This document shows, in pieces, positions 73 to 12,139 of a stretch of 41,438 nt of DNA; the first letter of the stretch is position 1, and each line of letters starts with the position of its first letter. The stretch lies in the NCBI GenBank assembly GCA_026125665.1, contig JAHCKS010000040.1, positions 1 through 41,438 on the forward strand, given 5' to 3'. The DNA comes from Rubrivivax sp. GTDB taxonomy: Bacteria > Pseudomonadota > Gammaproteobacteria > Burkholderiales > Burkholderiaceae_C. Both the position numbers and the translations under genes were made by a program. The notes under the pieces were generated by a model. The model had not been told where the DNA came from and searched no databases. It saw nothing but the letters and a program-made list of their open reading frames with translations.

Positions 73-1776
73 TCACTTCAGTTCCTCCGGGAAGTACTTG
101 ATCACGCAGTCCACCGGGTTCGGCGCCGCCTGGCCCAGGCCGCAGATCGACGCATCGCGCATCACCTGCGAGAGATCGGCCAGCAGCTCGACGTCCCACT
201 TCTCGCCCTCGATCAGCGCCGAGGCCTTGGCCGTGCCGTTGCGGCACGGCGTGCACTGGCCGCACGACTCGTGGTGGAAGAAGCGCATCAGGTTGCGCGC
301 CGCATCGACCGCGCGGTCCTTGTCGGACAGCACGATCACGGCTGCCGAGCCGATGAAGCAGCCGTAGGGCTGCAGCGTGTCGAAGTCGAGCGGGATGTCG
401 CCGAGCGACGCCGGCAGGATGCCGCCCGAGGCGCCCCCCGGCAAGTACCCGTAGAAGACGTGCCCTTCGGCCATGCCGCCGCAGAACTCGTCGATCAGCT
501 CACGGATCGTGATGCCCGCCGGCGCCAGCTTGACGCCCGGCTCCTTCACGCGCCCCGACACCGAGAACGAACGCAGCCCCTTGCGGCCATGCCGCCCTTG
601 CGAGGCGAACCACGCCGCCCCGTTCTCGAGGATGTCGCGCACCCAGTGCAGCGTCTCGAAGTTGTGCTCCAGCGTCGGCCGGCCGAACAGGCCCACCTGC
701 GCCACGTACGGCGGGCGCAGCCGCGGCATGCCGCGTTTGCCTTCGATCGATTCGATCATCGCCGACTCTTCGCCGCAGATGTAGGCGCCGGCACCGCGGC
801 GCAGCTCGATCTCGGGCATGCCCGGGAACGGCGGCAACGCGCGCAGCTTCGCCAGCTCGCCTTCGAGCATCGCGCGGCAGCCGTGGTACTCGTCGCGCAG
901 GTAGATGTAGATCTTCTGGATGCCCACCGCCCACGCGGCGATCAGCATGCCTTCGATGAAGCGGTGCGGGTCTCGCTCGAGGTAGACGCGGTCCTTGAAG
1001 GTGCCGGGCTCGCCCTCGTCGATGTTCACCGCCATCAGCCGCGGCGCCGGCTCGTTGCGCACGATGCGCCACTTGCGCCCGGCCGGGAACCCCGCGCCGC
1101 CGAGGCCGCGCAGGCCCGAATCCTCGAGCGCCTTGATGACCTGCTCGACCTCGATCTCGCCGGCGATGCACGTCTTGAGCAGCGCGTAGCCGCCATCGGC
1201 CTTGTAGGCCTCCAGGTCGACGAAGCCCAGCGGCTCGTGCCGTGTGCGGCCGGCCTTCACGGCCGCATGCACCGCAGCCGTGGTGGCGTTGGCGATCGGG
1301 TGCTGGCCACAGGCCACGGCCGGCGCCTGTTCGCAGCGGCCGATGCAGGGCGCGGCGATGACGCGCACCTCGGCGCCCAGGAGCGCCGGCAGCTTTGCCA
1401 GCAGCTCGCGTGCGCCGGCCATCTCGCACGCGAGGCCGTCGCACACGCGCACCGTCAGGCGAGGCGGCGCCGTGTCGCCTTCCTTCACGATGTCGAAGTG
1501 GTGGTAGAAGGTTGCGACCTCGTAGACCTCGGTCTGCGCGAGCCCCATCTCCTGCGCCAGCGCGGCGAGGTGGCGCGCGCTCAGGTGGCCGAAGTGGTCC
1601 TGCAGCCGGTGCAGGTGCTCGATGAGCAGGTCGCGCGCGCGCGAGGCCGGGCCCAGCAGTTGCTGCACCTCGGCCCGCGCCTGCGGGTCGACGCGGCGAC
1701 CCTTCGGCGCCTCGCGCCGGCGTTGGCGGGTCGGCGCTTCGGCGCTCGCGGCGATGGGGATGACGGGGCGGCTCAT
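73..1776 (-). CDS. fdsB: NAD-dependent formate dehydrogenase, beta (diaphorase) subunit, NuoE-NuoF fusion
   Basis: The 567-residue protein joins a NuoE-like [2Fe-2S] domain to a NuoF-like FMN/NAD/[4Fe-4S] domain, as in the beta subunit of soluble NAD-linked formate dehydrogenases. The [2Fe-2S] ligands are visible as C112, C117, C144 and C148. The FMN/NADH-binding glycine-rich stretch GLGGAGFPAGRKW lies near 225-237. The [4Fe-4S] motif SCGQCTPC supplies C505, C508 and C511, with C545 as the likely fourth ligand. Its role would be to pass electrons from formate to NAD+ in the cytoplasm. It is the last complete gene of the oxalate operon, 87 bp after the acyl-CoA synthetase gene, which fits formate release from formyl-CoA. 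The molybdenum-containing alpha subunit is not in the window. Fusions of this kind also occur in NAD-reducing hydrogenases, but the oxc/frc context favours formate. The first 30 residues are basic and poorly conserved in character. Confidence 0.85.
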   Translation of the reverse strand: MSRPVIPIAASAEAPTRQRRREAPKGRRVDPQARAEVQQLLGPASRARDLLIEHLHRLQDHFGHLSARHLAALAQEMGLAQTEVYEVATFYHHFDIVKEGDTAPPRLTVRVCDGLACEMAGARELLAKLPALLGAEVRVIAAPCIGRCEQAPAVACGQHPIANATTAAVHAAVKAGRTRHEPLGFVDLEAYKADGGYALLKTCIAGEIEVEQVIKALEDSGLRGLGGAGFPAGRKWRIVRNEPAPRLMAVNIDEGEPGTFKDRVYLERDPHRFIEGMLIAAWAVGIQKIYIYLRDEYHGCRAMLEGELAKLRALPPFPGMPEIELRRGAGAYICGEESAMIESIEGKRGMPRLRPPYVAQVGLFGRPTLEHNFETLHWVRDILENGAAWFASQGRHGRKGLRSFSVSGRVKEPGVKLAPAGITIRELIDEFCGGMAEGHVFYGYLPGGASGGILPASLGDIPLDFDTLQPYGCFIGSAAVIVLSDKDRAVDAARNLMRFFHHESCGQCTPCRNGTAKASALIEGEKWDVELLADLSQVMRDASICGLGQAAPNPVDCVIKYFPEELK

Positions 1777-1863: not shown

Positions 1864-3996
1864 CTACAGCAGCCCCGCGGCGCGCGCCCACTGGTACTTG
1901 GCACCCAGGATCTCCACCGGGATCTCGGTCGAGTAGGCGTAGGCCGGGATGCCGTGCTCGTAGAGGTACTGTGCGGCTTCCTCGACCTCCACGTCACCGG
2001 CCAGCGAAGCCACCACCGGCTTGACCAGGCCCCGGGCCTTCATCTCGTCGATCACCTGCACCATGTTGCGCGCAAACACCATCGGCGGTGTCACGATGGT
2101 GTGCCAGTAGCCGAGGATGAGCGCGTGGATGCGCTCGTCTTCCAGGCCCAGGCGCACCGTGTTCATGTAGGTGATGGGCGGCTCGCCGCCGGTGATGTCC
2201 ACCGGGTTGCCGGCCGCGCCGAACGGCGGGATGAACTTGCGGAACGCGGCGTCCAGGTCCTCGGGCATGGGCTTGAGCAGCTTCAGGCCGTTGTCGACGC
2301 AGGCGTCCGACAGCAGCACGCCAGAGCCGCCGGCGCCGGTGATGATGACCACGTTCTCGCCCTTGGGCGTGGGCAGGATCGGCACGCCGCGCGCGAAGTC
2401 GAGCATCTGGCGCAGGCTCTTCGCGCGGATCACGCCCGACTGGCGCAGCACGTCGTCGTAGATCTTGTCGTTGCCGGCGAGCGCCCCGGTGTGCGAGCTG
2501 GCGGCCGCCGCACCGGCCGACGTGCGGCCGGCCTTGAGCACGATGACCGGCTTCTTCTTCGACACGCGCTTGGCCACCTCGGCGAAGGCGCGGCCGTCCT
2601 TCAGGTCCTCGCAGTGCTGCGCGATCACCTTCGTGTTGTCGTCTTGCTCGAAGTACAGCAGCAGGTCGTCCTCGTCGATGTCGCTCTTGTTGCCGAGGCC
2701 GACGATGGCCGACACGCCCATCTTCGCCGAGCGCGAGAAGCCGATGATGGCCATGCCGATGCCGCCGGATTGCGACGACAGCGCGGTGGAGCCCTTCACG
2801 TCGTAGGCGGTGCAGAAGGTGGCGCAGAGGTTGGCCGGCGTGTAGTAGAAGCCGTAGATGTTCGGCCCCATCATGCGGATGTTGTACTTGCGCCCGATCT
2901 CGACGAGCTCCTGCTGCCCCTCGTGGTTGCCGGTCTCGGCGAAGCCCGAAGGGATGAGCACGGCGCCGGCGATGCCCTTCTCGCCGCACTCGGTGAGCGC
3001 GCCGGCCACGAGCTTGGCCGGAATGGCAAAGACCGCGGTGTCGATCTCGCCCGGCACGTCCTTCACGCTCTTGTAGGCCTTGTGGCCCATGATCTCGGGC
3101 GACTTCGGGTGGATCGGGTAGATCTGCCCCTTGTAGCCGCCGTTGATGAGGTTCTTCATCACCGAGTTGCCGATCTTGCCGGTCTCGTCCGAAGCGCCGA
3201 TCACCGCCACCGCCTTGGGCTTCATGATGCGGTTCATCGACTTGACGATGTCGGCCTCGGCCGGCCGGTGGCGCGCCGGCTTCGGGTTGAAGTTGCACAG
3301 GATGCGCACGTCGGCGGCGACGGCGCCGCTCTTGCTGGCGAAGATGGGGTTGAGGTCCATCTCGGCGATCTCGGGGAAGTCGCTCACGAGCTCGCTGACG
3401 CGCACGATGATGTCTGCGAGCGCCTCGCGGTTGACCGCGTCGCCGCCGCGCACGCCCTTCAGCATCTCGGCGGCCTGGATGCCGTCGAGCATCGAGAGCG
3501 CATCGGCGCGCGTGGCCGGCGCGAGGCGGAAGGTGATGTCCTTCAGCACCTCGACGAGCACGCCGCCGAGCCCGAAGGCCACCATCTTGCCGAAGCTGCC
3601 GTCGGTGACCGCGCCGACGATCACCTCCTGGCCGCCCTGGATCATCTGCTGCACCTGCACGCCGTCGAGCTTCGCGTCGGCCTTGTAGCGCTTGGCGTTG
3701 GCGACGATCGTGTCGTAGGCTCTGGCGGCCTCGTCGGCGCTCTTGATGCCGACGATGACGCCGCCGGCCTCGGTCTTGTGCAGGATGTCGGGGCTGACGA
3801 TCTTCATCACCACCGGCAAGCCCATGCCGGCGGCGAGCTTGGAGGCCTCGGCAGCACTCTTGGCGAGGCCTTCGCCCGGCACCGTGATGCCGTAGGCGTC
3901 GCACACCTGCTTGCCCTCGGGGGCCGTGAGCGAATCGCGGCCGCTGGCACGCAGCGCGTCCAGGATCTGGCGAACCTTGGCCTTGTCCTTGTTCAT
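1864..3996 (-). CDS. ADP-forming acyl-CoA synthetase-like protein with permuted domain order
   Basis: This 710-residue protein belongs to the NDP-forming acetate-CoA ligase/succinyl-CoA synthetase superfamily. An ATP-grasp domain comes first (about 1-225, with H73 in SPDILHKT). It is followed by a CoA-binding Rossmann domain (about 255-380, starting KAVAVIGAS) and a ligase domain containing SSHTGALAG, whose H502 matches the phosphohistidine site of the family. Most single-chain members have the opposite order, CoA-binding first and ATP-grasp last. The gene lies 32 bp downstream of frc. In this setting it could activate oxalate or formate with CoA and ATP, priming the Frc cycle, or recover ATP from formyl-CoA. 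The substrate is inference. The start at 3996 gives a full ATP-grasp domain. Confidence 0.8.
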   Translation of the reverse strand: MNKDKAKVRQILDALRASGRDSLTAPEGKQVCDAYGITVPGEGLAKSAAEASKLAAGMGLPVVMKIVSPDILHKTEAGGVIVGIKSADEAARAYDTIVANAKRYKADAKLDGVQVQQMIQGGQEVIVGAVTDGSFGKMVAFGLGGVLVEVLKDITFRLAPATRADALSMLDGIQAAEMLKGVRGGDAVNREALADIIVRVSELVSDFPEIAEMDLNPIFASKSGAVAADVRILCNFNPKPARHRPAEADIVKSMNRIMKPKAVAVIGASDETGKIGNSVMKNLINGGYKGQIYPIHPKSPEIMGHKAYKSVKDVPGEIDTAVFAIPAKLVAGALTECGEKGIAGAVLIPSGFAETGNHEGQQELVEIGRKYNIRMMGPNIYGFYYTPANLCATFCTAYDVKGSTALSSQSGGIGMAIIGFSRSAKMGVSAIVGLGNKSDIDEDDLLLYFEQDDNTKVIAQHCEDLKDGRAFAEVAKRVSKKKPVIVLKAGRTSAGAAAASSHTGALAGNDKIYDDVLRQSGVIRAKSLRQMLDFARGVPILPTPKGENVVIITGAGGSGVLLSDACVDNGLKLLKPMPEDLDAAFRKFIPPFGAAGNPVDITGGEPPITYMNTVRLGLEDERIHALILGYWHTIVTPPMVFARNMVQVIDEMKARGLVKPVVASLAGDVEVEEAAQYLYEHGIPAYAYSTEIPVEILGAKYQWARAAGLL

Positions 3997-4028: not shown

Positions 4029-5276
4029 TCAGACGATCTTGGTCTCGCGCAGCGCCGCGATGTCCGCGGCGCCGTAGCCGAGCTCGGCCAGCACTTCGTC
4101 GGTGTGCTCGCCCAACAGCGGCGAGCGCTTCACCTCGGTCGGGCTGTCGGAGAGCTTGATCGGGTTGCCCACCGAGAGGTACTTGCCGCGTGTCGGGTGG
4201 TCCACCTCGACCACGGTGCCGGTGGCACGCAGCGCCGGCTCGTAGGCGATCTCCTTCATCGAGAGAATCGGCCCGCAGGGGATGTCGTACTTGTTCAGGA
4301 TGTCCATGGCCTCGAACTTCGTCTTGGTCATGGTCCACTGCTCGATGCGCTCGAAGATGCGCTTCAGGTGCGGCAGGCGCGCCTGCGGCGTGGCGAAGGC
4401 CTCGTCGGTGATCCAGTCTTCCTGGCCGATGACCTTGCAGATCGCCGCCCACACCGGCGCCTGCGTGATGAAGTAGATGTAGGCGTTGGGGTCGGTCTCC
4501 CAGCCCTTGCACTTCAGGATCCAGCCCGGCTGCCCGCCACCGGAGGCGTTGCCGGCACGCGGCACGGCGTCGCCGAACTCACCGTCGGGGTACTGCGGGT
4601 ATTCGGTGAGCTTGTGCGTGCGCTCCAGGCGCTGCTGGTCGCGCAGCTTGACGCGGCACAGGTTCAGCACGCCGTCCTGCATCGCCGCCAGCACCTTCTG
4701 GCCGCGCCCGGTGGTGTTGCGCTGGTACAGCGCCGCGACGATGCCCAGCGCCAGGTGCAGCCCGGTGCCGGAGTCGCCGATCTGCGCGCCGGTGACGAGC
4801 GGCGGGCCGTCGTCGAAACCGGTGGTCGAGGCGGCGCCGCCGGCGCACTGCGCGACGTTCTCGTAGACCTTGCAGTCCTCGTAGGGCCCGGGACCGAAGC
4901 CCTTCACCGAGGCCATGATCATGCGCGGATTGAGCTCCTGCACGCGCTCCCAGGTGAAACCCATGCGGTCGAGCGCACCCGGCGCGAAGTTCTCGACCAG
5001 CACGTCGCAGGTCCTGATCAGGCGCTCGACGATCTCCTTGCCCTTGGGGTCCTTGGTGTTGACGGTGATCGAGCGCTTGTTGTGGTTCAGCATCGTGAAG
5101 TAGAGGCTGTCCACGCCGGGGATGTCGCGCAGCTGGCCGCGCGTCGCGTCGCCCTCGCCGGCCTTCTCCAGCTTGATGACGTCGGCGCCCAGCCAGGCCA
5201 ACAGCTGCGTGCAGGTGGGCCCCGACTGCACGTGCGTGAAGTCGAGGATGCGCACGCCGTCGAGCGCTTTGCTCAT
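4029..5276 (-). CDS. frc: Formyl-CoA:oxalate CoA-transferase (class III CoA-transferase)
   Basis: The protein (415 residues) matches the length of Frc enzymes (about 420-430). It transfers CoA from formyl-CoA to oxalate, making oxalyl-CoA for the decarboxylase encoded just upstream. The catalytic aspartate of class III CoA-transferases is visible as D168 in the motif [11 protein letters not shown], close to Asp169 of the Oxalobacter enzyme. The flexible glycine loop of Frc is seen as GGGQPGW at 246-252. The N-terminus ([16 protein letters not shown]) is typical of CaiB/BaiF proteins. Frc rather than a generic CaiB member is supported by the glycine loop and by its position 46 bp after oxc. 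It acts in the cytoplasm as an interlocked dimer, known from the family. Confidence 0.93.
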
Positions 5277-5322: not shown

Positions 5323-7104
5323 TCAGTTCGAGGCCGCCGCGGCCTTCTTGGCCAGCGTCGGGTTCAGGCTCGTGATGCGCCCGCTCTCGGTGCCGGCCGT
5401 CTCGTCGATGATGGCGTTGACGAGTGTCGGGCGGCGCGAGCGGATCGCTTCTTCCATGCCCTGTCGCAGCTGCGCCGGCGTGGTGGCGTAGACACCGACG
5501 CCGCCGAAGGCCTCCATCAGCTTCTCGTAGCGCGCGTCCTTCACGAACTGCGTCGGCGCGGCGTCGGTGCCGCCGGAGAGGTTCTTGTCGGTGCCGCGGT
5601 AGACGCCGTTGTTGTTGAAGATCACCACGCACACCGGCAGGTCGTAGCGGCAGATCGTCTCGACCTCCATGCCGCTGAAGCCGAACGCGCTGTCGCCCTC
5701 GATGGCGATGACCGGCTGCCCGGTCTCGACGGCGGCGGCCACCGCGAAGCCCATGCCGATGCCCATCACGCCCCAGGTGCCGACGTCCACCCGCTTGCGC
5801 GGCTTCATCATGTCGACGATCGAGCGCGTGAAGTCGAGTGCGTTGGCTCCCTCGTTGACGAGCATCGCGTCGGGGTTGGCCTTGACGATGTCGCGCACCA
5901 CGGCGAGCGCGCTGTGGAAGTTCATCGGCCGCGGGTCCTTGGCCAGCGTCTCGGCCATCTTGGCGACGTTCTTGTTCTTGCGCTCGGCCACGGCGTTCAG
6001 CCACTCCGCGGGCGGCTTGGGCCAGCTGCCGCCCATGCCCGCGAGCAGTGCCGAGACGCACGAGCCGATGTCGCCGACCACCGGCGCGTCGATGCGCACG
6101 TTGCTGTCCATCTCGGTGGGCGAGATGTCGATCTGCACGAACTTCTGGCCGCCCCAGTCCTTGGGCGTCTTGCCGCCCCAGGTCTTGCCCTTGCCGTGCG
6201 AGAGCAGCCAGTTCAGCCGCGCGCCGATGAGCACCACCACGTCGGCCTCGGGCAGCACGTAGGAGCGCGCCGCGGCCGCCGACAGCTCGTGCGTGTCGGG
6301 CAGCAGGCCCTTGGCCATCGACATCGGCAGGTACGGGATGCCGCTGCGCTCGACCAGAGCACGCACCTCGGCCTCGGCACGCGCGTAGGCCGCGCCCTTG
6401 CCGAGCACGATGAGCGGCTTCTTCGCGCCCTTCAGCAGCTCGAGCGCGCGCTGCACCGCCTCGGGCGCCGGGATCTGCCTGGGCGCCGGGTCGACGACCT
6501 TGATCAGCGAGGCGGCGCCGGCGGCCGCGTCCATGGTCTGCGCGAAGAGCTTCGCCGGCAGGTCGAGGTAGACGCCACCGGGCCGGCCCGACACGGCGGC
6601 GCGGATGGCGCGTGCGATGCCCACGCCGATGTCCTCGGCGTGCAGCACGCGGTAGGCGGCCTTGGCCAGCGGCTTGGCGATGGCGAGCTGGTCCATCTCC
6701 TCGTAGTCGCCCTGCTGCAGGTCGACGATCTCGCGCTCACTCGAGCCGCTGACGAGGATCATCGGGAAGCAGTTCGTCGTGGCGTTGGCCAGGGCCGTGA
6801 GGCCGTTCAGGAAGCCCGGCGCCGAGACGGTGAGGCACACGCCCGGCACGCCGTTCAGGTAGCCGGCGATGGACGCCGCGTGGCCCGCGTTCTGCTCGTG
6901 GCGGAACGAGATGACGCGCATGCCTTCGCCCTGGGCCATGCGCGTAAGATCCGTGATCGGGATGCCGGGCAGGCCGTAGATCGTCGTGATGCCGTTGAGC
7001 TTGAGGGCTTCGATGACGAGGTGGAAGCCGTCGATCGTGGCCGATGCGGCCGGGCTCGTGGCGGCGGCCGTGGCGGTGGTGGCGGTGGACAGGACTGCCG
7101 ACAT
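5323..7104 (-). CDS. oxc: Oxalyl-CoA decarboxylase (thiamine diphosphate enzyme)
   Basis: A 593-residue ThDP-dependent enzyme that decarboxylates oxalyl-CoA to formyl-CoA and CO2. E70, in [10 protein letters not shown], corresponds to the glutamate that activates the ThDP cofactor. The ThDP/Mg2+-binding motif starts with GDSAFGFSG at 470 and ends with NNN at 497-499. Three domains (PYR, central, PP) fit the length. The first 20 or so residues are an Ala/Thr-rich extension not needed for the fold. A GGAG sequence lies 6 nt upstream of the ATG at 7104. It is the first gene of the operon oxc-frc-synthetase-fdsB, and an FNR-like palindrome is centred about 92 bp upstream of its start. Pyruvate-oxidase-like relatives exist, but pairing with frc makes this call firm. 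Confidence 0.93.
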
Positions 7105-7160: not shown

Positions 7161-7204
7161 ATGGTAGGAAGCCGCGCGCGGCTTCGCCGTTGACCGCGGT
7201 CAAC
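7161..7204 (-). promoter_or_regulatory. FNR-like operator and candidate oxc promoter
   Basis: GTTGACCGCGGTCAAC at 7189-7204 is a perfect 16-bp palindrome with FNR-type half-sites (TTGAC-N4-GTCAA; FNR consensus TTGAT-N4-ATCAA). On the minus strand a -10-like TACCAT (7166-7161) is centred 33 bp from the operator centre. This is nearly the spacing of class II FNR/CRP-activated promoters, where the site at -41.5 takes the place of the -35 box. The same operator occurs upstream of tctC. It also lies 55 bp upstream of the regulator's own start, so autoregulation is possible. Binding is inferred from sequence only. Confidence 0.65.
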
Positions 7205-7251
7205 TTTCGAGAAACACCTGCAGCGGCGGCGCACGGCGGCGCCGCTCGACG

Positions 7252-7860
7252 ATGACGCTCCTCGTACAACATCCCGAACGCCTCGTCATCCGCGTGCAGC
7301 TGCGCCAGAACATCGTGCTGCAGGGGCTGAGCGACGACGAGTGGCACGAGCTCGAGGACATGCTCGAGGTCGTCGACTGCGCCAAGGGCGACTTCCTGCT
7401 GCACCAGGGCGTGCACGAGATGGAGCAGTACTTCGTCATCGACGGCCTGCTCAAGCGAGTCGTCTCCAACGCCGAGGCCAAGGAGATGATCCTGCGCTTC
7501 GCGGCCGAGCGCGAGATCGAGACCAGCTACGCCGCCTGGCGCCTGAACACGCCGACGCCCTACGCCATCGCCTGCGTGACGAAGGCGCGCGTGGTCAAGC
7601 TGCCGATGCCCTGGTGGGTGGGCTACCTCGAGCGGCACCCCAAGCTGAAGGCCGACTTCGAGTACCAGGTCATGCGCCTGATGAGCGACGTGCTCGCGCA
7701 CACGATCACGCTGCACCTGCTCGACGCACCCGGCCGCGTGCACCGCTTCATGCGCAAGCATCCGGAGCTCACCGAGCGCATTCCCAAGCGCGACCTGGCG
7801 ACCTACCTCAACCTCTCGGCCGAGACCTTGTCCCGGCTGAAGCAACGGGGAAAGATCTGA
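7252..7860 (+). CDS. Crp/Fnr-family transcriptional regulator, probable regulator of oxalate genes
   Basis: A 202-residue protein with a cyclic-nucleotide-binding-type beta-barrel (about 20-120), a dimerisation helix (about 135-160) and a C-terminal helix-turn-helix. The recognition helix reads SAETLSRLKQRG. E191, S194 and R195 match the E..SR residues by which E. coli FNR reads TTGA half-sites. The four cysteines that hold the FNR iron-sulfur cluster are absent (only C43 and C108), so it is probably not an oxygen sensor. The protein stops right after the recognition helix and lacks the usual wing. It is divergent from oxc and an FNR-like palindrome lies between them, which makes it the best candidate to control oxc-frc and tctCBA. 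The inducer is unknown. No clear Shine-Dalgarno precedes the chosen ATG. Confidence 0.85.
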   Translation: MTLLVQHPERLVIRVQLRQNIVLQGLSDDEWHELEDMLEVVDCAKGDFLLHQGVHEMEQYFVIDGLLKRVVSNAEAKEMILRFAAEREIETSYAAWRLNTPTPYAIACVTKARVVKLPMPWWVGYLERHPKLKADFEYQVMRLMSDVLAHTITLHLLDAPGRVHRFMRKHPELTERIPKRDLATYLNLSAETLSRLKQRGKI

Positions 7861-7885
7861 GGGCACGTCACGCCGCCCCTGGGGT

Positions 7886-8719
7886 TCAGTACTTGGCCGA
7901 CGGGAACAGGCGCGACTTGGCCATGACGCGCAGCTGGTTGTCCACGCCGGCCACGCCCGGCACGGCGGCGCTCACGCGCCCGGCCGCCTCGCGCTCCTCG
8001 GCCGTCACGACGATGCCGCGCAGCGTCACCGCGCCTGCGGCGGCCTCGATGGCCACGTCAACCTCGGCGGTCGCCTCGTCGCTGCGCAGCGCCGAGCGCA
8101 CGCGCGCGGCGAGCGCCATGCCCTGAAGCATCGCGCGCGAGGCCTCGGTCTCGGCGAACTCCGGCCGCGCCAGCAGGGCCTTGATCTGCTGCACGCAGGT
8201 GTCCACCGACAGGCGGTCGGTGTTCAGCACCATGTCGAACAGCGCCGGCTCGCCCCACTCGACGCCGAACTGCTCCTGCATGCGCGTGGCGTTGGAGTGG
8301 TCGCTGCGCCGGATCTCCTGCTCGGCGAGCTCGCGGTCGTCCGTCTCGAGCTGCGCCATCAGCCACTCGACGCGCTTGTCGAACGGCCGCATGATGCGGA
8401 TGCAGGGCACGTGCGGCACGGGGCGCAGCAGCAGCGTCGCGCCCCAGCCGCGCAGCACGACGTTGCCGCGCGCCGCCGTCTCCAGCACCTCCTCGGCGGT
8501 GTAGACGGCGATGCTGGCGCGGTCGGCGGTGAGGCGCTCGATCGGGCCGGCCTTGCCGGCCCGCAGGCGGCTGATCAGGCTCTTGGGCACGTGCATCTTC
8601 GCCGCCACCCGGTCGGCCACCTCGTGCTGCAACGTGGCCAGCTTCAGCTCGTCGGCCAGCTGCTCGGCCACATCCTGGGCCAGCGAGCCCATGCCTTGGG
8701 TCAATGCGACGACGGGCAT
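7886..8719 (-). CDS. Cytidylate-kinase-like protein with C-terminal BON domain
   Basis: The 277-residue protein has two parts. Residues 1-200 resemble the cytidylate kinase-like family (AAA-type nucleoside kinase fold). The P-loop is degenerate (TQGMGSLAQDVAEQL in place of a canonical GxxGxGK[ST]), but an arginine-rich lid region (about 110-150) is present. Residues about 205-270 look like a BON domain (EVDVAIEAAAGAVTLRGIV ... PGVAGVDNQL), a module usually found in envelope or osmotically induced proteins that bind lipid or polymer. No signal peptide or membrane segment is visible, so it is likely cytoplasmic. It starts 19 nt after tctA ends, with a good AAGGAG 6 nt before the ATG, and so is the last gene of the tctCBA operon. 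A regulatory or phosphotransfer role for the transporter is possible but unproven. Confidence 0.7.
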   Translation of the reverse strand: MPVVALTQGMGSLAQDVAEQLADELKLATLQHEVADRVAAKMHVPKSLISRLRAGKAGPIERLTADRASIAVYTAEEVLETAARGNVVLRGWGATLLLRPVPHVPCIRIMRPFDKRVEWLMAQLETDDRELAEQEIRRSDHSNATRMQEQFGVEWGEPALFDMVLNTDRLSVDTCVQQIKALLARPEFAETEASRAMLQGMALAARVRSALRSDEATAEVDVAIEAAAGAVTLRGIVVTAEEREAAGRVSAAVPGVAGVDNQLRVMAKSRLFPSAKY

Positions 8720-8738
8720 CCCATGCTCCTTGCGCTGT

Positions 8739-10265
8739 TCAGGTCGGGCCGTCGGCGAGCGCCGCCTTGTCCTTGCCGCGGCGCAGCCGGGCCAGCGCCA
8801 TGCCGATCACCGGCCAGAACAGCATCACCAGCGCCAGCGTCGTGATCGAGCCGACGAGCGGGTTCGACCACATGATGGCCAGGTCGCCCTGCGACACCAG
8901 CATCGCCTGGCGGAACGAGTCCTCGGCCTTGTCGCCCAGCACCAGCGCCAGCACCAGCGGCGCCAGCGGGTAGTCGAGCTTCTTGAACACGTAGCCGGCG
9001 ACGCCGAACATCAGCATGAACCAGATGTCCAGCATCGCGTTGTGCACGGTGTAGGCGCCGATGGCGCAGATGACGATGATCACCGGCGCGATGATGGAAA
9101 ACGGGATGCGCAGGATCGACGCGAACAGCGGCACGGTCGAGAGCACGACGATGAGCCCGACGATGTTGCCCAGGTACATCGAGGCGATGAGGCCCCAGAC
9201 GAACTCCTTCTGCTCGACGAACAGCAGCGGCCCGGGCTGCAGGCCCCAGATCAGCAGGCCGCCGAGCAGCACTGCCGCCGTGGGCGAGCCGGGGATGCCG
9301 AGCGCCAGCATCGGCAGCAGCGCGCTCGTGCCGGCTGCGTGCGCGGCCGTCTCGGGCGCGACGACGCCTTCGATCTCGCCGGTGCCGAACTTCGGGCCGG
9401 TGCGGCTCATCTTCTTCGCCAGGCCGTAGCTCATGAACGACGCGGGGGTCGCGCCGCCGGGGGTGATGCCCATCCACATGCCGACGACCGAGCTGCGCAG
9501 CGACGTGACCCAGTAGCGCGGCAGCTCCTTCCACGTCTGCCACACCACCTTCGGATTCAGGCGCGCCGACTTGCCGGAGAACTCGAGCCCCTCCTCCATC
9601 GACAGCAGGATCTCGCCGATGCCGAACAGGCCGATGACGGCGATGAGGAAGTCGAAGCCGCGCATCAGCTCGGTCGAGCCGAAGGTCAGGCGCAGCTGGC
9701 CGGTCATCGTGTCCAGGCCCACGGCCGCCAGCGCGAAGCCCAGACACATCGCCACCAGGATCTTGAACGGGCTGCCCTTGCCCATGCCGACGAAGCTGCA
9801 GAAGGTCAGCAGGTAGACCGAGAAGAACTCGGGCGCGCCGAACTTCAGCGCGAACCTCGCCACCAGCGGCGCGAGGAAGGTGATCATCAGCACGGCGATC
9901 AGCGCGCCGACGAACGACGAGGTGAACGCGGCGGTCAGCGCCTCGCCGGCGCGCCCCTTCTGCGCCAGCGGATAGCCGTCGAAGGTGGTGGCCACCGACC
10001 ATGGCTCGCCGGGGATGTTGAACAGCACCGACGTGATGGCGCCGCCGAACAGCGCGCCCCAGTAGATGCACGACAGCATGACGATGGCCGAGGTCGGCGA
10101 CATCGTGAAGGTCAGCGGCAGCAGGATGGCCACGCCGTTGGCCCCGCCCAGGCCGGGCAGCACGCCGATGAGCACGCCGAGGATGATGCCGACGAACATC
10201 AGGCCGAGGTTCAGCGGCGTGAGCACGACGGCGAACCCGTGCATCAGGGAGCCGATTTCTTCCAT
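8739..10265 (-). CDS. tctA: Tripartite tricarboxylate transporter, large membrane subunit
   Basis: A 508-residue, very hydrophobic protein of the TctA family, the permease component of tripartite tricarboxylate transporters in the inner membrane, with about 12 predicted segments. The conserved family stretch GVLPGLGGANGVAILLPL lies at about 34-52, followed by the second conserved block SCIYWGALFGGAITSVLFN. Length is normal for the family. The start at 10265 gives the usual N-terminus with MHGFAVVLTPLN soon after the start. It follows tctB after 57 bp and precedes the kinase-like/BON gene. The substrate cannot be read from TctA; characterised systems take citrate, terephthalate and other carboxylic acids. 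The shared operator with oxc suggests oxalate or a related acid. Confidence 0.93.
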   Translation of the reverse strand: MEEIGSLMHGFAVVLTPLNLGLMFVGIILGVLIGVLPGLGGANGVAILLPLTFTMSPTSAIVMLSCIYWGALFGGAITSVLFNIPGEPWSVATTFDGYPLAQKGRAGEALTAAFTSSFVGALIAVLMITFLAPLVARFALKFGAPEFFSVYLLTFCSFVGMGKGSPFKILVAMCLGFALAAVGLDTMTGQLRLTFGSTELMRGFDFLIAVIGLFGIGEILLSMEEGLEFSGKSARLNPKVVWQTWKELPRYWVTSLRSSVVGMWMGITPGGATPASFMSYGLAKKMSRTGPKFGTGEIEGVVAPETAAHAAGTSALLPMLALGIPGSPTAAVLLGGLLIWGLQPGPLLFVEQKEFVWGLIASMYLGNIVGLIVVLSTVPLFASILRIPFSIIAPVIIVICAIGAYTVHNAMLDIWFMLMFGVAGYVFKKLDYPLAPLVLALVLGDKAEDSFRQAMLVSQGDLAIMWSNPLVGSITTLALVMLFWPVIGMALARLRRGKDKAALADGPT

Positions 10266-10322
10266 GAAGGGTTCGCCCGCGGTGGTCGGTGGTGGAAAGG
10301 CCGGACGGCGGCTGCGGTCGGC

Positions 10323-10847
10323 TCAGTAGCCGAGGAAGTCGAGCGGTTTCAGGGCGCCCTTGAACAGCGGCACCTTGAACCACACCTCGAACATCAGGAA
10401 GAACAGCGCGTTGATCGAGACGCCGACGAGCGCGCTGCGCAGCACCGTGTAGCGGCCGAGCACGATCATGAACAGCGCGATGAACAGGGCCGAGGCGACG
10501 TACACGCCGAGCACCATGATCGCCGCGACATACAACGCCGACGGCCCGAGCACCAAGAACACGCGCCGCATCTGCACGCTGTCGACGAAGGTGCTGCTGT
10601 CGGACTTCCGCGCCACGAGCGCCTGCACGAAGATGGCGACGCTGCTGACCAGCAGGATGAGGCCGATGTAGAAGGGGAAGTAGCCCGCCCCCGGGCCGTC
10701 GCTCTGCCAGGTGGCGCCGAGCCGGCGTGCCTCGACGATGACGACGGTGGCGATCGCCGCCAGGATCACGGCCACGACCATGTCGACCGTGGTGTTGCGG
10801 GCCAGCGGGCGGCCGCCCTCGGCGGCGGAGGTGTCTGGATGCGCCAT
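10323..10847 (-). CDS. tctB: Tripartite tricarboxylate transporter, small membrane subunit
   Basis: This 174-residue protein has four hydrophobic segments (from about 22, 60, 97 and 132), as expected for TctB, the small membrane partner of TctA. The start at 10847 was chosen because AGGAG lies 6 nt upstream; the frame stays open another 20 codons but without a ribosome binding site. A hydrophilic stretch with KSDSSTFVDS separates segments two and three. It lies between tctC (175 bp upstream) and tctA (57 bp downstream) in the same direction. TctB proteins vary greatly in sequence, so the assignment rests on size, topology and position. Confidence 0.88.
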   Translation of the reverse strand: MAHPDTSAAEGGRPLARNTTVDMVVAVILAAIATVVIVEARRLGATWQSDGPGAGYFPFYIGLILLVSSVAIFVQALVARKSDSSTFVDSVQMRRVFLVLGPSALYVAAIMVLGVYVASALFIALFMIVLGRYTVLRSALVGVSINALFFLMFEVWFKVPLFKGALKPLDFLGY

Positions 10848-10990
10848 CGCGGTCTCCTGCAGCGGGGTGGAAGGGTGGGACGCCGAACCGGGATGCGAAG
10901 GGCGCACGCGGCCCGGCCCCGCAGCGATCGCTTCGCTGGCGTTGCCCGGACGGGTCGCGCCCCGCGGGTCGGAGTGATCGGGCCGGCGCG

Positions 10991-11012
10991 CGGCGGGCGC
11001 GGGCGCCCGCCG
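10991..11012 (-). terminator. Hairpin between tctC and tctB
   Basis: A perfect 9-bp stem (CGGCGGGCG / CGCCCGCCG) with a 4-nt loop lies 10 bp after the tctC stop codon. There is no T-run. Hairpins at this place are common after genes for periplasmic binding proteins, where they protect the upstream message or cut down read-through so that the binding protein is made in excess over the membrane subunits. That function is inference here. Confidence 0.4.
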
Positions 11013-11022
11013 CCTGCAGCCG

Positions 11023-12063
11023 CTACTTGGCGAGGAAGCCCGCCTCGGTCATCAGCGTCTTGTGGTTCGCCTCGGCGTTCGTCAGCCACTTGACGTAGTC
11101 CGCCCCCTTCAACGCCGTCTGGTTGAAGGCGCCCTTCTCCATGAACTCCTTCCACTCGGGCGTGGCGCGCACCTTGTCGAGCAGGTCGACGTAGAACTTG
11201 ACCTGCTCGGGCGTGACGCCCGGCGCCATGAAGATGCCGCGCAGCATGACGTAGTCGGTCTTGACGCCGGACTCGCCGCAGGTCGGGATGTCGTTCCACG
11301 ACATCGTGTCGGTGACCTTGTCCTTGTACGGCATGCGCTGGTCGTCGAAGACGCACAGCGGGCGCAGCTTGCCGGCGCGCCACTGCGCCACCGCCTCGAT
11401 CGGGTTGTTCACCGTCGAGTCGACGTGCTTGCCGACGAGCTGCACGGCGACCTCGCCGCCGCCCTTGAACGGCACGTAGATGAACTTCGTGCCGGTGGCC
11501 TTCTCGAGGCCGACGGTGATGATCTGGTCCTCCTGCTTGGAGCCGGTGCCGCCCATCTTCATCTTCGCCGGGCCGGCCGCCTTCACCGCGGCGACGTACT
11601 CGCCGGCGGTCTTGTAGGGCGTCTCGGCATTCACCCACAGCACGAACTGGTCCAGCGCCAGCATCGACACCGGGGTCAGCTCCTTCCAGTTGAACGGCAC
11701 GCCGGTGGCCAGCGGCGTCGTGAACAGGTTGGACAGCGTGATGATGATCTTGTGCGGGTCGCCCTTCGCTTCCTTGACCGACAGGAAGCCCTCGGCGCCC
11801 GCGCCGCCGCTCTTGTTGACGACGACCATCGACTCCTTCATCAGCTTGTGCTTGACGACGATGCCCTGGATCAGCCGGGCCATCTGGTCGGCACCGCCGC
11901 CGGTGCCGGCAGGGATCACGAACTCGACCGGCTTGGTCGGCTCCCAGGCCAGGGCCGCTCCGGCCAGCGAGAGCCCGGCGGCCGCGACCGCGGCCAGGCG
12001 GCCCTTCCGGCGCGCCAGCTTCGGCGCGAAACGCGAACGGGGGATCGGGGTGGTGAGCATCAT
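11023..12063 (-). CDS. tctC: Bug/TctC-type periplasmic solute-binding protein
   Basis: The 346-residue protein is the extracytoplasmic binding component of the tripartite transporter. It begins with a basic n-region (RSRFAPKLARRKGR) and a hydrophobic core ending AGAALA, a likely signal peptidase site before WEPTKPVEFVIP. The next stretch, PAGTGGGADQMAR, is the family's ligand-loop signature. The start at 12063 was chosen for its AGGAG 8 nt upstream; the frame is open further but that extension overlaps the operator. Bug proteins bind carboxylic acids through two water molecules and loops rather than a fixed motif, so the ligand cannot be read from sequence. The FNR-like operator 70 bp upstream is the same as that before oxc, hence oxalate or a related acid is the leading guess. 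Confidence 0.92.
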   Translation of the reverse strand: MMLTTPIPRSRFAPKLARRKGRLAAVAAAGLSLAGAALAWEPTKPVEFVIPAGTGGGADQMARLIQGIVVKHKLMKESMVVVNKSGGAGAEGFLSVKEAKGDPHKIIITLSNLFTTPLATGVPFNWKELTPVSMLALDQFVLWVNAETPYKTAGEYVAAVKAAGPAKMKMGGTGSKQEDQIITVGLEKATGTKFIYVPFKGGGEVAVQLVGKHVDSTVNNPIEAVAQWRAGKLRPLCVFDDQRMPYKDKVTDTMSWNDIPTCGESGVKTDYVMLRGIFMAPGVTPEQVKFYVDLLDKVRATPEWKEFMEKGAFNQTALKGADYVKWLTNAEANHKTLMTEAGFLAK

Positions 12064-12096
12064 CGCGTGTCTCCTGTTCGTCGATGAACAGGCGCG

Positions 12097-12139
12097 ATGC
12101 TCGGACAAGCCCGCGCGGCGACCCATTGACCGCAGTCAA
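12097..12139 (-). promoter_or_regulatory. FNR-like operator upstream of tctC
   Basis: TTGACCGCAGTCAA at 12126-12139 has the same half-sites and nearly the same core as the oxc operator (13 of 14 bases identical). It is centred about 70 bp upstream of the tctC start codon. On the minus strand a weak -10-like GAGCAT (12102-12097) lies at the same 33-bp distance as TACCAT does in the oxc promoter. A third GTCAA half-site occurs at 12149-12153 without a partner. The 254-bp region between tctC and the HDAC-like gene holds no other clear signal. Confidence 0.6.

Follow-up and report, generated by a model that had tools for sequence, protein, structure and literature searches.

A conserved palindrome next to a CRP/FNR-type regulator precedes oxalate catabolism genes and either a tripartite transporter or OxlT in Rubrivivax and its relatives

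CRP/FNR regulators, tripartite tricarboxylate transporter (TTT) systems, the oxalate:formate antiporter OxlT, and the oxc-frc pathway of oxalate breakdown are each already known. Here, we describe a locus from Rubrivivax sp. (contig JAHCKS010000040.1; the whole stretch of 41,438 nucleotides is called the window in the following), in which a CRP/FNR-type regulator gene stands between oxalate catabolism genes and the tctCBA genes of a TTT system, and in which almost the same palindrome precedes both groups of genes. The regulator resembles FNR, DNR, CRP, and GlxR in its fold, its E..SR recognition helix, its palindromic TTGA-type site, and the class II spacing of this site, but differs from the family by the absence of the FNR-type cysteines, a cNMP domain below the cut-off, and a regulon that would comprise a local pathway. 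OxlT (TIGR04259) is found together with oxc-frc and belongs to the same pathway, and in relatives of the window it is encoded at the same place and behind the same operator. However, OxlT is a one-protein antiporter of the major facilitator superfamily, while the genome of the window encodes tctCBA instead. With the TctCBA, BctCBA, and Bug receptor systems the window system shares its three subunits (as assigned by Pfam), and it is set apart from them by its tie to oxalate catabolism. In the oxc clusters on plasmids of Azospirillum, Skermanella, and Paracoccus oxc also neighbours frc, acs, or formate dehydrogenase genes, but there a GntR gene precedes oxc and no palindrome is present within 1.1 kb.

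Oxalate appears as a possible ligand of TTT receptors in the available part of the 2010 Cupriavidus genome paper (PMC2864759) and is not mentioned in the available text of a 2018 TTT review (PMC5812351). OxlT is regarded as the oxalate transporter, and it is the sole one in the available part of a catalogue of oxalate genes published in 2026 (PMC12927642). A putative oxalate operon has been reported for Cupriavidus oxalaticus, in which these parts are unnamed (PMC9476978). The statement of the original prediction that no tripartite transporter serving oxalate has been described thus agrees with the literature searched, which included few subscription papers, apart from the possible-ligand listing in the part of PMC2864759 that was available. 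Within this literature, the union of a local CRP/FNR-type oxalate regulator with a TTT system bound to oxalate catabolism is new.

Both palindromes lie where they had been predicted, GTTGACCGCGGTCAAC at 7189-7204 between oxc and the divergent regulator gene (site A) and TTGACCGCAGTCAA ahead of tctC (site B, Table 1), and they match at 13 of 14 bases, as claimed. The window contains no other exact copy of TTGAC-N4-GTCAA. If one mismatch is tolerated, three matches are found compared to 0.31 expected, and a count of three was reached in one of 100 shuffles. The near edge of site B is 62 bases away from the tctC start, which was set at 12063 because AGGAGA precedes this position; a longer open reading frame starting at 12126 was rejected. 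It is unlikely that two such palindromes are found by chance within 5 kb and before just these two operons.

A lack of conservation of the palindromes in related genomes would have refuted the original prediction, but they are kept before the oxc as well as the tctC orthologues. In a sample of 200 genomes of the family, 35 regulator orthologues (at least 65% identity, including the window's own; next matches at most 43%) all fall among the 37 genomes with oxc. A scan of named genomes with the regulator alignment yielded 511 relatives. The 80 best of these, together with 34 earlier loci and the window, resulted in 115 loci, or 104 distinct ones after 11 had been dropped as duplicate regulator genes. 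Nine of these were excluded from the site A count because oxc was not matched within 1 kb of the regulator; in eight of the nine the exact palindrome is located 63-78 bases upstream of the regulator gene, and the ninth locus begins within this gene. The remaining 95 include one locus (L057) in which a distant thiamine pyrophosphate enzyme (27%) takes the position of oxc, while the oxc of this genome is located in L193. The palindrome in the oxc-regulator gap is exact in 89 of the 95 loci and has one mismatch in five and two mismatches in one. Shuffled gaps contain an exact copy in 0.02% of the cases, and the next best of the 1024 five-base half-sites is present in 3/95. Upstream of tctC, where 150-300 bases were scanned and loci with at least 150 available bases were counted, the site is exact in 39/64 and has one mismatch in 19/64. 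Before oxlT, the site is exact in 4/22 and has one mismatch in 16/22. The surrounding intergenic columns vary while the sites persist. Chance as an explanation for the palindromes was rejected based on the shuffles of the window and on the shuffled-gap and half-site controls in the relatives. The inner bases are also conserved, the oxalate sites preferring TTGACC-NN-GGTCAA (93% and 96% on the oxc side).

The distance to the promoter is nearly fixed. In the direction of the gene, a NANNNT hexamer (-11A, -7T) begins at offset 36 or 37, counted from the start of the palindrome, at 99% of the 94 oxc sites and 98% of the 58 tctC sites, compared to a median of 6-10% over all offsets. At the oxlT sites (n=20) it is found at offset 36/37 in 70% and at 35/36 in 80%. 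The same offset recurs before three non-homologous genes. The hexamer is 29.5-30.5 nt away from the centre of the palindrome, which is therefore expected near -41.5 or -42.5. In class II activation by CRP and FNR, the site is centred near -41.5, about 29.5 nt from the -10 hexamer, and the oxc and tctC sides both show this spacing with respect to predicted start sites. The hexamers of the window, TACCAT for oxc and GAGCAT for tctC, would represent weak promoters in need of an activator. On the regulator side of the palindrome no comparable hexamer peak was found at that place. The site also precedes the regulator's own gene, at a median of 60.5 bases from its start.

The second line of evidence comes from the transporters. 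Of the first 34 relatives, 12 have no tctCBA match in the locus. In the 11 of these that were read, six genes, five intact and one cut, passed the OxlT model TIGR04259. Extended to the 104 loci, 70 have tct, 23 have oxlT, two have both, and nine have neither or are cut. The same near-exclusion is seen in the family sample, where 21 of the 37 genomes with oxc encode only a TTT system (TctA at least 82% identical), 13 only OxlT (E 1e-90 or better), two both, and one neither (Fisher p 3.8e-7, without correction for kinship). In the genome of the window (G000, 88.6% complete), no OxlT match at E 1e-90 or better and no gene above the TIGR04259 cut-off was found, with eight of 21 first-look candidates scored. 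In a quick tree of 86 Oxc proteins (62 with tct, 16 with oxlT, eight uncounted) the transporter has changed 11 times, and eight of these changes are forced by well-supported branches. Because the same operator precedes OxlT instead of TctCBA, the two transporters appear to be functional substitutes, and the best reading is that they are interchangeable within one oxalate regulon.

Sites and regulator also co-occur where the genes are separated. Outside the oxalate loci we found 20 tctA paralogues with 75-80% identity, 19 of which have a readable tctC upstream region (L214 is unreadable). None of the 18 tctC paralogues from genomes without detected regulator or oxc has an exact site or a site with one mismatch, and one has a site with two mismatches. 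Genome G029 encodes the regulator and oxc without adjacent transporter, and its distant tctCBA genes have an exact site. In G155, which belongs to the same genus, an exact site is located 120 bases upstream of an unlinked OxlT gene. The site is absent from OxlT genes in genomes in which no regulator was found, namely two in G032 and one in G049. In G197, a single palindrome is followed by tctC-B-A-oxc-frc, all in one direction. A class-wide search of 369 genomes revealed a single oxc match above 70% outside the family, and therefore oxc loci without adjacent regulator were drawn from plasmid records, of which six of 29 were opened. The plasmid records yielded no regulator orthologue but only matches of 25-33% in four records. 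None of the eight oxc loci without adjacent regulator (L194 in G049, L216 in G551, and L220-L225 from the six plasmid records; the regulator was searched for in the whole genome in G049 only) has a palindrome within 1.1 kb upstream, and in three of the plasmid records an annotated GntR regulator precedes oxc.

The regulator itself has the architecture of the CRP/FNR family. Its AlphaFold model (mean pLDDT 88.9) consists of a cNMP-like beta-barrel, a long dimer helix, and a C-terminal winged helix, and Foldseek matched it to GlxR, CRP, DNR, and FNR at E 1e-11 to 1e-13. A CRP in the strict sense binds cAMP; the cNMP domain of the regulator scores below the Pfam cut-off (21.6 compared to 27.5 bits). 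The residues E191, S194, and R195, which had been noted in the recognition helix, are indeed present and are invariant in all 35 orthologues and all 104 loci. FNR uses the equivalent E, S, and R residues to read TTGA. In the strict sense, an FNR also has four cysteines for a [4Fe-4S] cluster. The regulators of the 104 loci have zero to four cysteines (fewer than four in 102 and four in two) and do not contain the FNR-type set. E90, T91, and Y93-W96 are invariant in the 35 orthologues and may be part of an effector site. Our guess for the effector is oxalate or an oxalate CoA ester.

Together, we consider it likely that the 202-residue protein is the local activator of an oxalate regulon comprising the oxc operon and either TctCBA or OxlT. 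A single regulon for uptake and breakdown, as originally proposed, is supported by the conserved sites, by their absence before the 18 paralogues, and by their presence before oxlT. The regulator dimer would read palindromes of the TTGACC-NN-GGTCAA kind, which have their centre near -41.5 to -42.5, and would recruit RNA polymerase in a class II manner to the weak -10 promoters of oxc-frc-acs-formate dehydrogenase and of tctCBA. TctCBA would import oxalate, Frc and Acs would form oxalyl-CoA, Oxc would decarboxylate it, and formate would then be oxidised. In those relatives that encode OxlT in place of TctCBA, the same operator would drive OxlT. With somewhat less confidence, although still favouring it, we suggest that in this clade TctCBA imports oxalate in a binding-protein-dependent manner and represents a second type of oxalate uptake in bacteria next to OxlT, that the two transporters have repeatedly replaced each other (with no fewer than eight supported changes on the Oxc tree), and that both are under the control of one conserved activator sensing oxalate or its CoA ester.

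The palindrome is not restricted to these operons. In the 104 loci there are 46 further exact copies in 1.70 Mb, compared to 0-4 for each of 12 control half-sites. Some of them lie upstream of acs (L068), a second frc, oxlT, a NuoE-like gene (L050), a porin-like gene (L039; a weak NCBIfam match), or, in loci without oxc, the regulator. The regulon may therefore be wider and might span functions from the outer membrane up to the oxidation of formate. The whole source genome contains nine TTGAC-N4-GTCAA palindromes compared to four copies of the reversed control pattern, and some will therefore be there by chance. The seven others have no obvious oxalate genes nearby (their neighbours were read as open reading frames only). 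Three of them are TTGACG-NN-CGTCAA and three have TTGACG on one side only. Among those at L070:93, L071:4971, L072:5014, L074:4465, and L075:5062, the symmetric variant is found in L072, L074, and L075, and a -10-like hexamer at offset 35 in L070, L071, L072, and L074. These variants and offsets suggest that a second regulator of the FNR type recognises a site that differs slightly.

Such a regulator could also be the reader of the oxalate sites. The half-sites are FNR-like, and a global regulator of the FNR, ANR, or DNR type responding to oxygen or nitric oxide might bind them, while the adjacent gene would have another role. The seven other palindromes, four of them with the hexamer at offset 35, make another FNR-type reader possible. 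In line with this, the unlinked OxlT gene of G099 is preceded only by the canonical FNR-like TTGATCGCGATCAA, and G052 carries palindromes although no regulator was found, its contig stopping at oxc. However, the site tracks the local regulator, being present in nearly all loci that encode it and absent within 1.1 kb upstream of oxc in the eight examined loci without it beside oxc (only the genome of L194 was searched as a whole for the regulator) and before all 18 tctC paralogues, and the oxalate sites favour TTGACC-NN-GGTCAA while the other genomic sites are mostly of the TTGACG type. We therefore regard a global reader as quite unlikely. It is even harder to imagine that the sites are conserved merely by close kinship. 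The regulators are 65-92% identical to that of the window, the named loci were selected as the 80 best among 511, and four related families account for all 61 of these loci to which a family name is attached. Nevertheless, the sites persist between variable intergenic columns, stand before non-homologous transporters and at unlinked places (G029, G155), and have been kept through repeated transporter exchange. Conservation by descent alone was rejected based on the further palindromes, the repeated exchange on the Oxc tree, and the unlinked sites.

Concerning the direction of control, the site before the regulator's own gene makes self-repression conceivable, and the regulator might be a repressor that is relieved by oxalate or a CoA ester. 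This is decidedly improbable given that the -10 elements of oxc, tctC, and oxlT are weak and stand at class II spacing, with no such element towards the regulator gene. Concerning the substrate, TctCBA might belong to the regulon but carry a different small dicarboxylate or a product, for example formate. TTT substrates cannot be read from sequence, the closest TctA paralogues (75-80%) have no assigned substrate, and in G107 (L192:1-7177) tctCBA, cmk/BON, frc, and a dehydrogenase gene are co-directional while neither oxc nor the regulator was found; this contig begins at tctC, and its upstream region is therefore unreadable. Against another substrate stand the replacement of TctCBA by OxlT, a family named for oxalate, under the same operator, the near-exclusion of both in oxc genomes, and the single palindrome ahead of tctCBA and oxc-frc in G197, and we regard it as unlikely. 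Besides G052, G099, and G107, several points weigh against an oxalate regulon under a local activator. Some sites are degenerate, with two mismatches in 3/64 and three or more in 3/64 before tctC (in these last, L083, L087, and L126, an exact copy is located 1.0-1.8 kb upstream and was left uncounted), and with three or more in 2/22 before oxlT. The -10 offset was picked from the same sites in which it was later counted and is hence descriptive, and the tctC -10 is weak by its TATAAT count. The 18 control genomes are without oxc as well as without the regulator. Among the four OxlT genes of regulator genomes that are unlinked or second copies, only that of G155 has the site, with none before the second OxlT of G097 or of G168, the latter adjoining a 43% paralogue of the regulator. 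The p-value of the exclusion ignores shared ancestry, and the 82% cut-off for TctA was chosen once the gap to 80% had become apparent.

If TctCBA imports oxalate, surveys using OxlT as marker overlook more than half of the oxc genomes of the family, as 21 of 37 have no OxlT match at E 1e-90 or better and a close relative of the window TctA instead. In this case oxalate use need not rely on formate exchange. The regulator can serve as a marker in genomes, is a candidate sensor of oxalate, and would be a switch apparently common to many soil and water bacteria that combines oxalate breakdown with one of two unrelated uptake systems.

Table 1. Genes, predicted promoter elements, and palindromes of the oxalate locus in the window
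Feature	Position	Strand	Evidence
NuoE/NuoF-like fused subunit, probably NAD+-linked formate dehydrogenase beta/gamma part	73..1776	-	Pfam 2Fe-2S_thioredx, Complex1_51K, NADH_4Fe-4S
acs, NDP-forming acyl-CoA synthetase	1864..3996	-	Pfam ATP-grasp_5, CoA_binding, Succ_CoA_lig, Ligase_CoA_2
frc, formyl-CoA transferase	4029..5276	-	TIGR03253, 729.8 bits (cut-off 504.2)
oxc, oxalyl-CoA decarboxylase	5323..7104	-	TIGR03254, 971.9 bits (cut-off 739.4)
Predicted oxc -10 hexamer TACCAT	7161..7166	-	30.5 nt from site A centre
Operator A, TTGACCGCGGTCAA, oxc-regulator gap	7190..7203	strandless	exact in 89/95 loci
CRP/FNR-type regulator, 202 aa	7252..7860	+	E191/S194/R195 in recognition helix
Cytidylate-kinase-like and BON domain protein (cmk/BON)	7886..8719	-	Pfam Cytidylate_kin2, BON
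tctA, large membrane subunit	8739..10265	-	Pfam TctA, 3.1e-151
tctB, small membrane subunit	10323..10907	-	Pfam TctB
tctC, periplasmic receptor	11023..12063	-	Pfam TctC
Predicted tctC -10 hexamer GAGCAT	12097..12102	-	30.5 nt from site B centre
Operator B, TTGACCGCAGTCAA, ahead of tctC	12126..12139	strandless	exact in 39/64, one mismatch in 19/64 loci

In the window, oxc, frc, acs, and the formate dehydrogenase subunit gene follow each other on the reverse strand, the regulator gene is divergent, and tctC, tctB, tctA, and cmk/BON again lie on the reverse strand. Oxc and Frc are equivalogs above the curated NCBIfam cut-offs, which assigns the operon to CoA-dependent oxalate catabolism, and TctA, TctB, and TctC encoded together identify the transporter as a TTT system. 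The fused NuoE/NuoF-like gene is the final gene ahead of the contig end and adjoins frc/oxc in many relatives. The Acs protein may be the maker of the first oxalyl-CoA. In L038, L057, L058, L060, and L063, the acs gene adjoins the single frc gene. In many other relatives, two frc genes are found instead. The cmk/BON gene closes the tct genes and stays beside tctA in many, although not all, relatives, without an obvious role. On a marine Paracoccaceae plasmid, oxc is followed after about 5 kb by genes for a distant TctC/TctB/TctA set (L225:14847-17662), which is perhaps an independent link of a TTT system and oxalate. In addition, a second regulator with 34-43% identity is located beside a second OxlT or a palindrome at L056:13813-14415, at L069:9001-9591, and in L065 (second copy).

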